Below are positions 12,874-34,307 of a stretch of DNA of 64,000 bases, one piece after another. The notes under the pieces are model-generated. The model had not been told where the DNA came from. It searched no databases and saw nothing but the letters and a program-made list of their open reading frames with translations. The translations under genes and the position numbers were made by a program. Every line of letters begins with the position of its first letter. Positions within the stretch are counted from its first letter, which is position 1. The stretch comes from Chthonomonadaceae bacterium (lineage in GTDB: Bacteria; Armatimonadota; Chthonomonadetes; Chthonomonadales; Chthonomonadaceae), in contig DAIDHN010000004.1 of assembly GCA_027459665.1 (NCBI GenBank), positions 1-64,000 of the forward strand. The letters run 5' to 3'.

Positions 12874-12878
12874 AGTTC

Positions 12879-12950
12879 ACACAGGCGATGGAGACCGCCC
12901 GTCTGGCTTGCAGCTGGCAAACCGCCCCGCAGGGGCTGATGGCTCCTGAC
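12879..12950 (+). promoter_or_regulatory. Fluoride riboswitch (crcB motif)
   Basis: The conserved blocks of the fluoride aptamer are present in order: GGCGATGGAG, CCGCC, AAACCGCCCC and GGGGCTGATGGCTCCTG. The stem GGAG/CTCC and the pseudoknot-forming segments are recognisable, with a slightly longer loop between the first two blocks. The aptamer lies directly upstream of two crcB genes. The 3' strand of its stem, GGCTCCTGA, also forms the 5' arm of the following terminator, so ligand binding should favour antitermination and fluoride should turn the operon on. Confidence 0.93.
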
Positions 12951-12979
12951 TTCGCACAGGCGATTTCAGGGGCTTTTTT
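12942..12979 (+). terminator. Riboswitch expression-platform terminator
   Basis: GCTCCTGA pairs with TCAGGGGC (one G-U pair) and is followed by seven T. The left arm is shared with the aptamer stem, making the two structures mutually exclusive. The crcB start codon is 17 bases further on. Confidence 0.85.
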
Positions 12980-12996
12980 TATTTGGAGACCATTCT

Positions 12997-13395
12997 ATGC
13001 CTTCCTACAGCAATATGCTTCTGGTGGGTCTGGGAGGAGTGGCGGGCGCCAACGCACGCTTCTTTTTCAGCCGCTTCATAGCAAACCGCACAGATACCGG
13101 CTTTCCATGGGGAACGCTGGTTGTGAATGTCACCGGCAGCTTCATTATGGGTTTGCTAGCTGTATTGTCTGCCGGGCTGCACTGGAACCCACAGTGGGGA
13201 CTGTTGGCAGCAACCGGCTTCACCGGGGCTTACACGACCTATTCTACATTTGAATACGAAACTTTTGCTCTCGTGCAGGATGGCAGCCTGCGCCGGGCGG
13301 CATTCAACTTTCTGCTCAGTTTTCTGCTTGGGTTTGCCGCCCTCTTCACAGGAGCAGGACTGGCGAACATGATTGTTGAAAGGAGTGGCAAATGA
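12997..13395 (+). CDS. crcB: Fluoride exporter subunit CrcB/FluC, first copy
   Basis: A 132-residue small membrane protein with four hydrophobic segments. It carries the FluC signatures GGVAGANARFF near the N-terminus, NVTGSFIMG in the second segment and TGFTGAYTTYSTFEYE in the third. FluC channels let fluoride leave the cytoplasm and work as antiparallel dimers. GGAG precedes the ATG by 8 bases, immediately after the riboswitch terminator. Its last codon overlaps the start of the second crcB gene (ATGA), so the two are made together, fitting a heterodimeric pair. Confidence 0.95.
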   Translation: MPSYSNMLLVGLGGVAGANARFFFSRFIANRTDTGFPWGTLVVNVTGSFIMGLLAVLSAGLHWNPQWGLLAATGFTGAYTTYSTFEYETFALVQDGSLRRAAFNFLLSFLLGFAALFTGAGLANMIVERSGK

Positions 13396-13853
13396 CGCAG
13401 CAGGATAACCTGCCCGCACAGAAACCGCGCCAGAGCAGCAGAACTGCAGGAGGCACAGCCTTTTTTAGCACCCTAATGACAATTGGGGCTGGAGGGTTTG
13501 CGGGCGCCAACGCACGCTACCTTGCAAGCCTCTGGATTCAGCACCAGGCAGGTACTGCCTTTCCATACGATACGCTGCTCATCAACGTAACTGGCTGCTA
13601 CGTGCTGGGCGTGTTCAGCTCTCTGCTGCAGCGCACTGCAGTCAGCGATACCTGGCGCCTGCTTGTCGCCATCGGCTTTCTGGGTGGCTACACTACGTTT
13701 TCAACCTTTGAACTCAATCTCTATACCCTGGTGCAAAAAGGAAATTTTGTACCTGCATTACTCTATCTGCTGCTAAGCATGGCACTTGGATTCCTGGCAG
13801 TTTACCTGGGGGTAGTTACGGTTCGGCTGTTTTTTGCACACAGCAGGCAGTAG
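13392..13853 (+). CDS. crcB: Fluoride exporter subunit CrcB/FluC, second copy
   Basis: A 153-residue partner of the preceding protein with the same layout: GGFAGANARYL, NVTGCYVLG and IGFLGGYTTFSTFELN. It differs in two ways. It has an N-terminal extension of about 30 polar residues before the first membrane segment, and the usual GSF after NVT reads GCY. AAGGAG precedes the ATG. Paired unequal crcB genes are known to form obligate heterodimers in Firmicutes; the same is inferred here from the coupled reading frames. Confidence 0.93.
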   Translation: MTQQDNLPAQKPRQSSRTAGGTAFFSTLMTIGAGGFAGANARYLASLWIQHQAGTAFPYDTLLINVTGCYVLGVFSSLLQRTAVSDTWRLLVAIGFLGGYTTFSTFELNLYTLVQKGNFVPALLYLLLSMALGFLAVYLGVVTVRLFFAHSRQ

Positions 13854-31695: not shown

Positions 31696-31724
31696 TTGAC
31701 TTCTGCGTCAAAACATGATACACT
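31696..31724 (+). promoter_or_regulatory. Sigma-70 promoter of the Gly-Met-rich protein gene
   Basis: TTGACT (31696-31701), a 17-base spacer and TACACT (31719-31724) stand 41 bases ahead of the start codon. The rest of the 300-base divergent gap to the aldo/keto reductase gene holds no other recognised element. Confidence 0.7.
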
Positions 31725-31765
31725 TGCGTAACTCTGTGTCTGTTTTTGAGGAGGGAGTAGAGTAT

Positions 31766-33238
31766 ATGATTTCTCGCAAGGCTCTGTCTGCTTCGGCTCT
31801 CGCGCTCATATTTGGGTGCGGAGGGTTGTTGCGTGCGGGAGCGCAGGGCGCTCCATTCACCATTCATATGCCGCCCGATGGGGCTACAGTGCGTGAAACC
31901 GTAGCGGTGCAGGTTCCCAGCGCAAGTATTAGCCCAGGGGGATTTGTTTCAGTTTACATCGACGGCAAGTTTCAAATAGCGCTTGCCCCCCGGGAAGATT
32001 CTACCGCTCCTTATTTCACCTACTATTGGGATACCAAAGACCTGCAGGTGCCTGATGGCGAGCATAGCATTACGCTGCGTCTGTTTGAGCCAAGTGCAGA
32101 TTCTGGAAACAAGGATTCAGTTGACCTGGCAGGCACAACGCAGGTAAAAGTGGATGTTGCCAACATCATACACGACGGCCCAAGCGAACTGCGCCTGCGT
32201 TACCGGTACCCTGAGGGTCTGAATTTTCTCTACAATCGCAATGCCAGTTCTGTGATAGTTGGTTCTGTTTCAGATGCGGGGGTAAGCGGCAACATTCCCA
32301 TAGCTTCTGCCAACAGCAAGCTGCTGCTTGATATAGAAGATGGCTCTGAAGCGCTGGTGCGCAGCAAGCTCACTAATCTCAGCCTGCTTTCTGGCGGGCA
32401 GCAAACAGATGTGCCTCGCGATGCACTTACCAGCTCGGTGTACCAGGTGCTGGATGTGCAGGGAAATGTACACTACGAATATGGCGGCAGCGGTCAGCTG
32501 GCTGCTTATGCACAGTCGGGAGTGCCGCTGGACGGGACTTTGAACCTGCCGGCTCTTCCTGAAGCCCCTGTGCAGGTGGGACAAACCTGGAACACGCCAG
32601 ACCAGCGCATTGTAGTGCCCGGGCAGAGCGGCAGCCGCGTGCTGCATGTTACCCTGCACAACAAACTGGTAGACCTGGAATGGCAGAATGGATATCCTGC
32701 TGCGAAAATTCATCAAACCTATGAATCTGGCAAGGGTGGTCATGTGCCTCATCTCATGGAACTGGGCGGCATTCTTATTCAGAACCCGCACTTTCAGTTT
32801 TCCAGAGACATTTATATCGCCTACACTGCCGGCAGACTGGTAAAGATTTCACAGAAAGTTACCGTAAAGGGTGATACTTCCGCTAACCTGCAGCAGGGAG
32901 TTACGGGCGGCATGGGGCGCGGTATGGGCGCTATGGGTCGCGGTATGGGCGGCATGGGCGGCTACCCTGGCATGCCCGGCGGCATGGGCGGTTACCCCGG
33001 CATGCCCGGCGGCATGGGGCGGCCCGGCATGGGCGGTATGCCCGGCGGCCCTGGCATGGGCTACCCTGGCATGCCCGGAGGTATGGGGCGGCCCGGCATG
33101 GGCGGGCGGGGCGGCATGGGCGGTTTCCCTGGCGCACCCGGCATGGGAGGCGGTTTTATGGGAGCTGGGGCGCAGGCCGCTACGCATCCTGTTACCGTGC
33201 TGATTACTACCGTGACCAGTTTGTCTAAAGTAGACTAA
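31766..33238 (+). CDS. Secreted protein with Gly-Met-Pro-rich repeat tail
   Basis: A 490-residue exported protein. ATG 31766 has GAGGAGGG upstream and opens a signal peptide (to about residue 27, GAQGA). Residues about 30-130 resemble an Ig-like fold (FTIHMPPDGATVRETVAVQV). The middle is beta-rich with a region like those of lipoprotein-carrier-type domains (TSSVYQVLDVQGNVHYEY). Residues about 381-470 are low-complexity repeats of GGMGGYPGMPGGMGRPGMGG type. A short strand-forming end (VTVLITTVTSLSKVD) follows. The function is unknown; such tails are often flexible or self-associating. Confidence 0.8.
   Translation: MISRKALSASALALIFGCGGLLRAGAQGAPFTIHMPPDGATVRETVAVQVPSASISPGGFVSVYIDGKFQIALAPREDSTAPYFTYYWDTKDLQVPDGEHSITLRLFEPSADSGNKDSVDLAGTTQVKVDVANIIHDGPSELRLRYRYPEGLNFLYNRNASSVIVGSVSDAGVSGNIPIASANSKLLLDIEDGSEALVRSKLTNLSLLSGGQQTDVPRDALTSSVYQVLDVQGNVHYEYGGSGQLAAYAQSGVPLDGTLNLPALPEAPVQVGQTWNTPDQRIVVPGQSGSRVLHVTLHNKLVDLEWQNGYPAAKIHQTYESGKGGHVPHLMELGGILIQNPHFQFSRDIYIAYTAGRLVKISQKVTVKGDTSANLQQGVTGGMGRGMGAMGRGMGGMGGYPGMPGGMGGYPGMPGGMGRPGMGGMPGGPGMGYPGMPGGMGRPGMGGRGGMGGFPGAPGMGGGFMGAGAQAATHPVTVLITTVTSLSKVD
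32905..33170 (+). repeat. GC-rich repeat tract encoding GGYPGMPGGMG units
   Basis: Imperfect tandem units of GGC/GGT, ATG and CCC codons encode glycine, methionine and proline. The unit GGCATGCCCGGCGGCATGGG recurs. Such tracts can vary in length between strains. Confidence 0.75.
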
Positions 33239-33305: not shown

Positions 33306-33863
33306 TCAGTCTGAAACTATGTCGGCAAATACCGGCAGATAGTCTTTCCAAATCTGGTTTTTACGCCCGGATATATATTTTGTCAGGCTGATGTAGGGCG
33401 TATATCGTGGACGGCGCGGCGTACGCATCAGTTTCATTCCTACCTGGTGGGGCAGTTTATCCCCCTTTTTGATATTGCAGCGTTTGCAGCAGGCCACCAG
33501 GTTGTCCCAGGTAGCAGGCCCGCCGGCATGGCGGGGAACTACATGGTCTATGGTAAGGTCTTTGGTAGTAATGCCGCAGTACTGGCAGGTAAAGTTGTCT
33601 CGCGCAAAGATAGTGCGTCTGGATAGCTTTAGCTCAGGCAGAGGGCGTTTTACCTGGCTTCGCAGTTTGACCACGGAAGGCATGTCGTAACTGTGCTTCA
33701 CGCTTTGCACCCTGTATTCCGGGTTGGCATGCAAAATTTCGGCTTTTCCCATATACACCAGCACGATGGCGCGCCGTGCTGTGCATACATTGAGCGGCTC
33801 ATAGTCACTGTTCAGCACCAGTACTTCCTGATTCATAATGTGTACAGCATCATCCATTCGCAT
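33306..33863 (-). CDS. HNH endonuclease
   Basis: A 185-residue protein of the widespread bacterial HNH family. The zinc ribbon CQYC and CKRC brackets the HNH core: LTIDHVVPRHAGGPATWDNLVACCKRCN, in which His-Val-Val-Pro and Asn are the catalytic elements (written here in two parts in the usual order). The N-terminal VLNSDYEPLNVCTARRAI is the family's opening. ATG 33863 follows AAGGAT. The start lies only 13 bases after the T-tract of a terminator, at the end of a long leader. This places its expression under attenuation. The biological role of the family is poorly known. Confidence 0.9.
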   Translation of the reverse strand: MRMDDAVHIMNQEVLVLNSDYEPLNVCTARRAIVLVYMGKAEILHANPEYRVQSVKHSYDMPSVVKLRSQVKRPLPELKLSRRTIFARDNFTCQYCGITTKDLTIDHVVPRHAGGPATWDNLVACCKRCNIKKGDKLPHQVGMKLMRTPRRPRYTPYISLTKYISGRKNQIWKDYLPVFADIVSD

Positions 33864-34141
33864 TGCTTCATCCTTAAAAAACAGACCCGCTCATTCTGCT
33901 GGGCAGAAGGCGGGCCGTTGTGTAACTTGCACGGGCATACATGCTGCTCCGTGGTGGTGTAAACAATGGAGATGGCATAAATTTTCCTGTAACGCTGTGT
34001 AAAGGTCGCAGAAAAACTCACTACGCTCTTTGTAAAGCGCCTGTGCCCAAACTGGATATGGGTTTCTCCGTAGGTTCACGGCTCACACCTCCCCAGAAGA
34101 CAGTCGGTTATGCCAAAAAAGTTGCATTAAAATGCATATGC
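33864..34141 (-). ncRNA. Structured leader RNA of the HNH gene
   Basis: A strong minus-strand promoter at 34148-34176 should start RNA near 34141, and an intrinsic terminator at 33876-33914 ends directly before the HNH ribosome-binding site. The roughly 265-base RNA has an 8-bp closing helix (34108-34115 with 33973-33980) enclosing three hairpins: CCGT/ACGG, CCCA/TGGG and GCGCT/AGCGT. It contains no plausible reading frame. It could be a riboswitch-like attenuator or a free-standing small RNA with read-through. I do not recognise the family. Confidence 0.6.
33876..33914 (-). terminator. Intrinsic terminator in the HNH leader
   Basis: On the minus strand CCCGC (33914-33910) pairs with GCGGG (33890-33886) and TTCTG with CAGAA inside; TTTTTT follows at 33881-33876. 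Confidence 0.75.
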
Positions 34142-34147
34142 AATGTA

Positions 34148-34176
34148 AGTATAACAAAAGACGCATCTGGTGTCAA
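34148..34176 (-). promoter_or_regulatory. Near-consensus sigma-70 promoter of the leader RNA
   Basis: TTGACA (34176-34171), a 17-base spacer and TATACT (34153-34148) form one of the two strongest promoters in the window. Confidence 0.85.
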
Positions 34177-34278: not shown

Positions 34279-34307
34279 TTGACAGTCTGTCTCATGAGCG
34301 TTATAAT
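34279..34307 (+). promoter_or_regulatory. Consensus sigma-70 promoter of the beta-propeller gene
   Basis: TTGACA (34279-34284), exactly 17 bases and TATAAT (34302-34307) match both consensus boxes perfectly. The 5' untranslated region is about 90 bases. Confidence 0.9.

Follow-up and report, generated by a model that had tools for sequence, protein, structure and literature searches.

A putative leader-peptide transcription attenuator ahead of an HNH nuclease gene in Armatimonadota

The window analysed here, a 64,000-nt stretch of a Chthonomonadaceae contig, carries on its minus strand a gene for a 185-aa HNH nuclease-domain protein (33306..33863, ATG at 33863; PF01844, E = 1.3e-14; PF14279, E = 9.6e-16) that lies directly behind a segment with its own promoter and its own terminator. 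This arrangement raises the question of what the segment encodes and how transcription reaches the nuclease gene. The original prediction was a non-coding leader with the shape of a multibranch aptamer, which could sense a ligand or stress or act as a small RNA with read-through. Comparison with related genomes supported a dedicated regulatory leader from which HNH is reached by read-through, with conservation across the phylum, and spoke against a ligand-sensing aptamer. We consider it likely, from the features compared below, that the segment is a leader-peptide transcription attenuator that controls the HNH gene via the ribosome.

Promoter and terminator ahead of the HNH gene

The leader promoter is of the sigma-70 type, TTGACA-17-TATACT with an extended −10 element (34148..34176, minus strand), and is near consensus, as predicted, with 11 of 12 matches. 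The implied transcript of about 265 nt, from promoter to terminator, likewise agrees with the prediction and ends at an intrinsic terminator 12–13 nt ahead of the HNH start codon. This terminator consists of a GC-rich hairpin, GGCCCGCCTTCTGCCCAGCAGAATGAGCGGGTC (33884..33916, minus strand; dG −19.7), and a U-run (33876..33881, minus strand).

A DNA similarity search for the leader in 61 relatives returned only the leader itself and a 23-nt chance match, and the comparison was therefore made via HNH homologues, with regions upstream of HNH taken from about 125 Armatimonadota genomes, most of them metagenome assemblies. Of 289 Armatimonadota genomes, 253 carry the HNH gene, in almost all cases as a single copy. 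Its nearest named homologues come from Chthonomonadaceae, the solved structures nearest to it in sequence are HNH domains of IscB, Cas9 and small HNH nucleases, and its PADLOC matches are at the domain level only. No conserved operon partners of HNH were found beyond near relatives.

The promoter is kept in these relatives: the best site upstream of the leader scored at least 10/12 in 70 of 117 HNH leaders, compared with 1.7% of shuffles. Within 170 nt of the HNH start, 113 of 124 upstream regions contain a hairpin of −15 kcal/mol or lower followed by a U-run, compared with 7 of 124 for an interval farther upstream and 11 of 124 for shuffled sequences, which places an intrinsic terminator between the leader ORF and the gene. 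The gap from hairpin to HNH start is 40 nt or less in 43 of 118 genomes, a distance into which a separate promoter hardly fits, suggesting that HNH is transcribed largely by read-through. HNH leaders at Chloroflexota loci, outside Armatimonadota, showed no comparable terminator.

The leader segment evolves as a coding sequence in relatives

The RNA had been described as non-coding, a description that the sequence of the segment does not support. It contains a 62-codon ORF (33891..34079, minus strand), which begins with GTG, ends with a TGA inside the 3′ arm of the terminator and is preceded at 8 nt by a good Shine-Dalgarno sequence, GGGGAGG (34088..34094, minus strand). Its translation, MNLRRNPYPVWAQALYKERSEFFCDLYTALQENLCHLHCLHHHGAACMPVQVTQRPAFCPAE, includes a His-rich core, HLHCLHHH (33951..33974, minus strand), which matches the DSFSHLHYLHH-type motifs of relatives. 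A profile built from 11 further leaders of this family ranked the window ORF first among 1683 six-frame stretches (E = 2.6e-5, against 0.5 for the runner-up). A profile of the other families alone, built without family f1, did not find the window peptide and gave weak matches to the f1 members L050 and L048, which indicates that the homology of the window leader runs through its f1 relatives.

The window is the sole member of its genus in the genome collection, so that coding selection on its own ORF is judged from family relatives. Among 24 close pairs, aligned as DNA without use of the protein sequence, pN/pS was 0.39 in the frame of the leader ORF, compared with 1.08 and 1.17 in the two alternative frames. 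By this measure, the segment between promoter and terminator evolves as protein-coding sequence in the relatives, and a short predicted ORF thus stands between promoter and gene, with coding selection in relatives and a Shine-Dalgarno sequence and ORF in the window.

The leaders are about 45–80 codons long and carry a motif of approximately 19 residues, which in the LEDS-type leaders has the consensus A-[RH]-x-L-R-[LM]-L-E-D-[SG]-[FL]-C-H-x-[QRH]-H-x-[HQ]-H. All leader-profile matches with E < 1e-4 in the 289 genomes lay upstream of HNH. The arrangement precedes the same nuclease in most sampled Armatimonadota families, in varying versions, and it appears to represent a new phylum-wide family of leader peptides; we found no description of such a leader ahead of HNH in the literature. 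His is missing from the motif in several lineages, including those with LEDSFFYQSSYRRY, RWSTGSWFGTRG and PPxWxDTIIRA. The last of these belongs to f14, where the coding signal is modest and weaker than elsewhere. The Ile codons of f14 leaders (for example, L110, L133 and L136) are nearly all the rare ATA, arranged as ATA ATA CGN, and at one position all 29 Ile codons are ATA, suggesting that selection on codons or at the nucleotide or RNA level may act in this lineage. In some f14 leaders, the PPxW codons are also flanked by the two halves of an inverted repeat, CCGCC...GGCGG.

Position of the leader stop codon and motif relative to the terminator

Leader frames were picked by eye from conserved motifs, which makes the stop-geometry statistic partly circular: among 70 genomes outside f14 and f28-30, 43 have the stop codon directly against the stem (−12 to −1 nt), 19 have it within the hairpin and 8 have it past the hairpin, and none of these leaders stops before −12 nt, compared with 44 of 140 ORFs in other frames. 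This count leaves out three f15 leaders, whose frame is uncertain. Of 36 f14 leaders, 35 have a frame that continues through the hairpin, and f28-30 form a second read-through lineage. In none of the 115 leaders tested does the ORF end farther than 12 nt upstream of the stem, and a ribosome that has reached the last codons would thus overlap the terminator.

The motif itself also keeps its distance from the hairpin. From the Asp codon of the motif to the stem, LEDS-type leaders have a median of 51 nt (interquartile range, 48–57) and f14 leaders 36 nt (35–38), unlike the distance from start codon to motif, which scatters widely; the window, at approximately 70 nt, is above the usual value. Conservation of the consensus drops sharply after D+10, approximately 18 nt before the stem, and that of the f14 motif ends at D+5, about the same distance from its own stem. 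A distance of approximately 18 nt is close to that between the P site and the leading edge of a ribosome. Ribosome 3′ edges have been reported at +16 to +18 of the start codon (PMC12121999). In E. coli, ribosomes repress termination almost completely when the terminator follows a stop codon by a few nucleotides, and termination becomes maximal once the terminator is beyond about 27–30 nt from the stop codon (PMC4824070). In its predicted stop and stem positions, the geometry here is the same as that of ribosome-repressed E. coli terminators and of the msrD leader.

Folding of the leader RNA

The segment folds more stably in silico than expected by chance, with a minimum free energy of −90.1 kcal/mol and a z-score of −3.45 against dinucleotide shuffles, terminator included. 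The predicted minimum-energy fold of the window contains the closing helix that had been described, GGUGUGAGC/GUUUACACC followed by GGAGA/UCUCC, enclosing three hairpins. The expectation that these helices are meaningful and conserved did not hold up when covariation was checked in relatives: in an RNAalifold consensus of seven family members, the terminator was the only surviving helix, leaving no conserved covarying helices besides it and a weak residual pairing signal. This residual signal came from a count of paired cells in seven relatives, in which the whole structure stood above shuffled or slid versions and the helix between the Shine-Dalgarno region and the His codons kept 76% of its cells, with part of the excess stemming from the window itself and from the terminator. 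This pairing may be a secondary feature. The segment also had no Rfam family match (E up to 10, chance-level matches only), and third codon positions in the leader are free to vary. Both the strong fold and the residual pairing speak for a multibranch, ligand-binding riboswitch governing the terminator, but set against the loss of all helices other than the terminator, the contribution of window and terminator to the excess, the free third positions and the Rfam result, such an RNA is very improbable.

The 6S RNA (RF00013) was suspected at first and rejected, as its covariance model matched neither the segment nor the genome. This genome is 99.9% complete, and the 6S RNA of Armatimonadota may be divergent or absent.

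A proposed model of ribosome-controlled termination

The comparison across Armatimonadota shows a conserved predicted promoter, coding selection in the leader frame, a characteristic stop–terminator geometry, a constant spacing between motif and hairpin, and specificity for HNH. In the attenuator that we favour, RNA polymerase would start at the promoter, transcribe the leader ORF and meet the terminator just ahead of HNH. With a ribosome close behind, or held by its nascent peptide, the leading edge would cover the 5′ arm of the hairpin, and in the window the ribosome would even read into the 3′ arm; with the 5′ arm covered, the hairpin could not fold and HNH would be transcribed. If the ribosome lagged, was absent or had departed, transcription would stop before HNH. 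The conserved motif and its constant spacing suggest that the peptide probably slows or arrests the ribosome, which would then occlude the terminator directly, as in MsrDL or pyrL.

In the pyrL–pyrBI attenuator of E. coli, the leader ORF likewise reaches into the terminator or continues beyond it, and a nearby ribosome keeps termination from occurring. The pyrL system depends on UTP-sensitive pausing of RNA polymerase and, to our knowledge, does not require a conserved peptide motif, whereas the leaders described here have one. TnaC, a leader ORF of the sensory kind, acts through Rho. The hisL and trpL leaders resemble the present ones in combining a leader peptide with a terminator, and the family peptide here is His-rich; they differ in that the leaders here show no enrichment of antiterminators, do not universally contain His and place the stop codon on the terminator itself. 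Attenuation at pyrL is discussed in PMC4824070. In the streptococcal msrD leader, ribosome stalling directly obstructs an intrinsic terminator (PMC10314930), so that MsrDL shares with our model a ribosome stalled on a leader ORF that blocks a Rho-independent terminator before the gene; MsrDL, however, is a 6-aa macrolide-sensing peptide, far from a long leader with an extended motif that would act on an HNH nuclease. The TnaC and toiL uORFs (PMC8429421, PMC12121999) are similar as sensory leader ORFs with nascent-chain or antibiotic stalling, but toiL is described there as acting on translation and on Rho-dependent termination, whereas the terminator here is intrinsic.

The His-rich peptides invite a classical reading as an amino-acid attenuator, in which scarcity of charged tRNA-His would stall the ribosome at the His codons, allow an antiterminator to form and turn HNH on. 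Outside f14 and f28-30, 10.8% of the residues in the leader peptides are His, and the HLHCLHHH core of the window would suit such a device. Complementarity to the terminator arm in the upstream sequence is not enriched, however (median z −0.28 across 118 leaders; 0.07 in the window), no run of codons for one amino acid is common to all members, with f1 being His-rich and several lineages having no His, and HNH is not a His gene. The lack of antiterminator enrichment together with the lineages whose motif has no His makes this reading unlikely. Conserved coding and a terminator are also typical of an ordinary small gene, and the leader ORF might be an independent small-protein gene that has a terminator of its own and is merely followed by HNH. 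Against this, the leader unit always precedes HNH though other neighbours change, many genomes leave no room for an HNH promoter, and an ordinary gene would rarely have its stop codon in or past the hairpin; we find this reading slightly less probable still. The strong promoter and the terminator do bound a discrete 265-nt transcript, which could be a trans-acting small RNA released at the terminator, with HNH expressed from leaky read-through. Outside the codons and the terminator, however, the RNA sequence is not conserved even within the family, and this is the most improbable of the readings, although a free small RNA may arise as a by-product of termination.

Returning to the ribosome-dependent attenuator, we tentatively propose a broader version of it, about which we remain more doubtful than confident. 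The leaders may be HNH-specific, phylum-wide nascent arrest peptides that sense translation-related stress and un-silence an otherwise terminated core HNH gene, and the lineages may have exchanged one motif for another (His-rich, LEDS, WxDTIIR with ATA codons, RWSTGSWFG) while keeping its distance from the terminator. If ribosome-controlled attenuation is correct, a whole under-studied phylum would share a regulatory switch, and a near-universal, uncharacterised HNH nuclease would be linked to translation status. The many natural motif variants at a fixed terminator spacing would also provide material for studying how ribosomes block termination.

Other features of the window

A divergent promoter of perfect consensus (TTGACA-17-TATAAT, 12/12; 34279-34307, plus strand) lies approximately 100 bp from the leader promoter and faces a PQQ-repeat-like gene. 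A 507-aa protein is encoded at 31715-33238, and its C-terminal part is a low-complexity Gly-Met-Pro repeat, PGMPGGMGRPGMGG (32900-33200, plus strand). Farther away, the window contains a fluoride riboswitch (RF01734, 41.5 bits; 12875-12955, plus strand). Downstream of it, two small ORFs in succession (12997-13395 and 13392-13853) resemble paired CrcB/Fluc fluoride channels.
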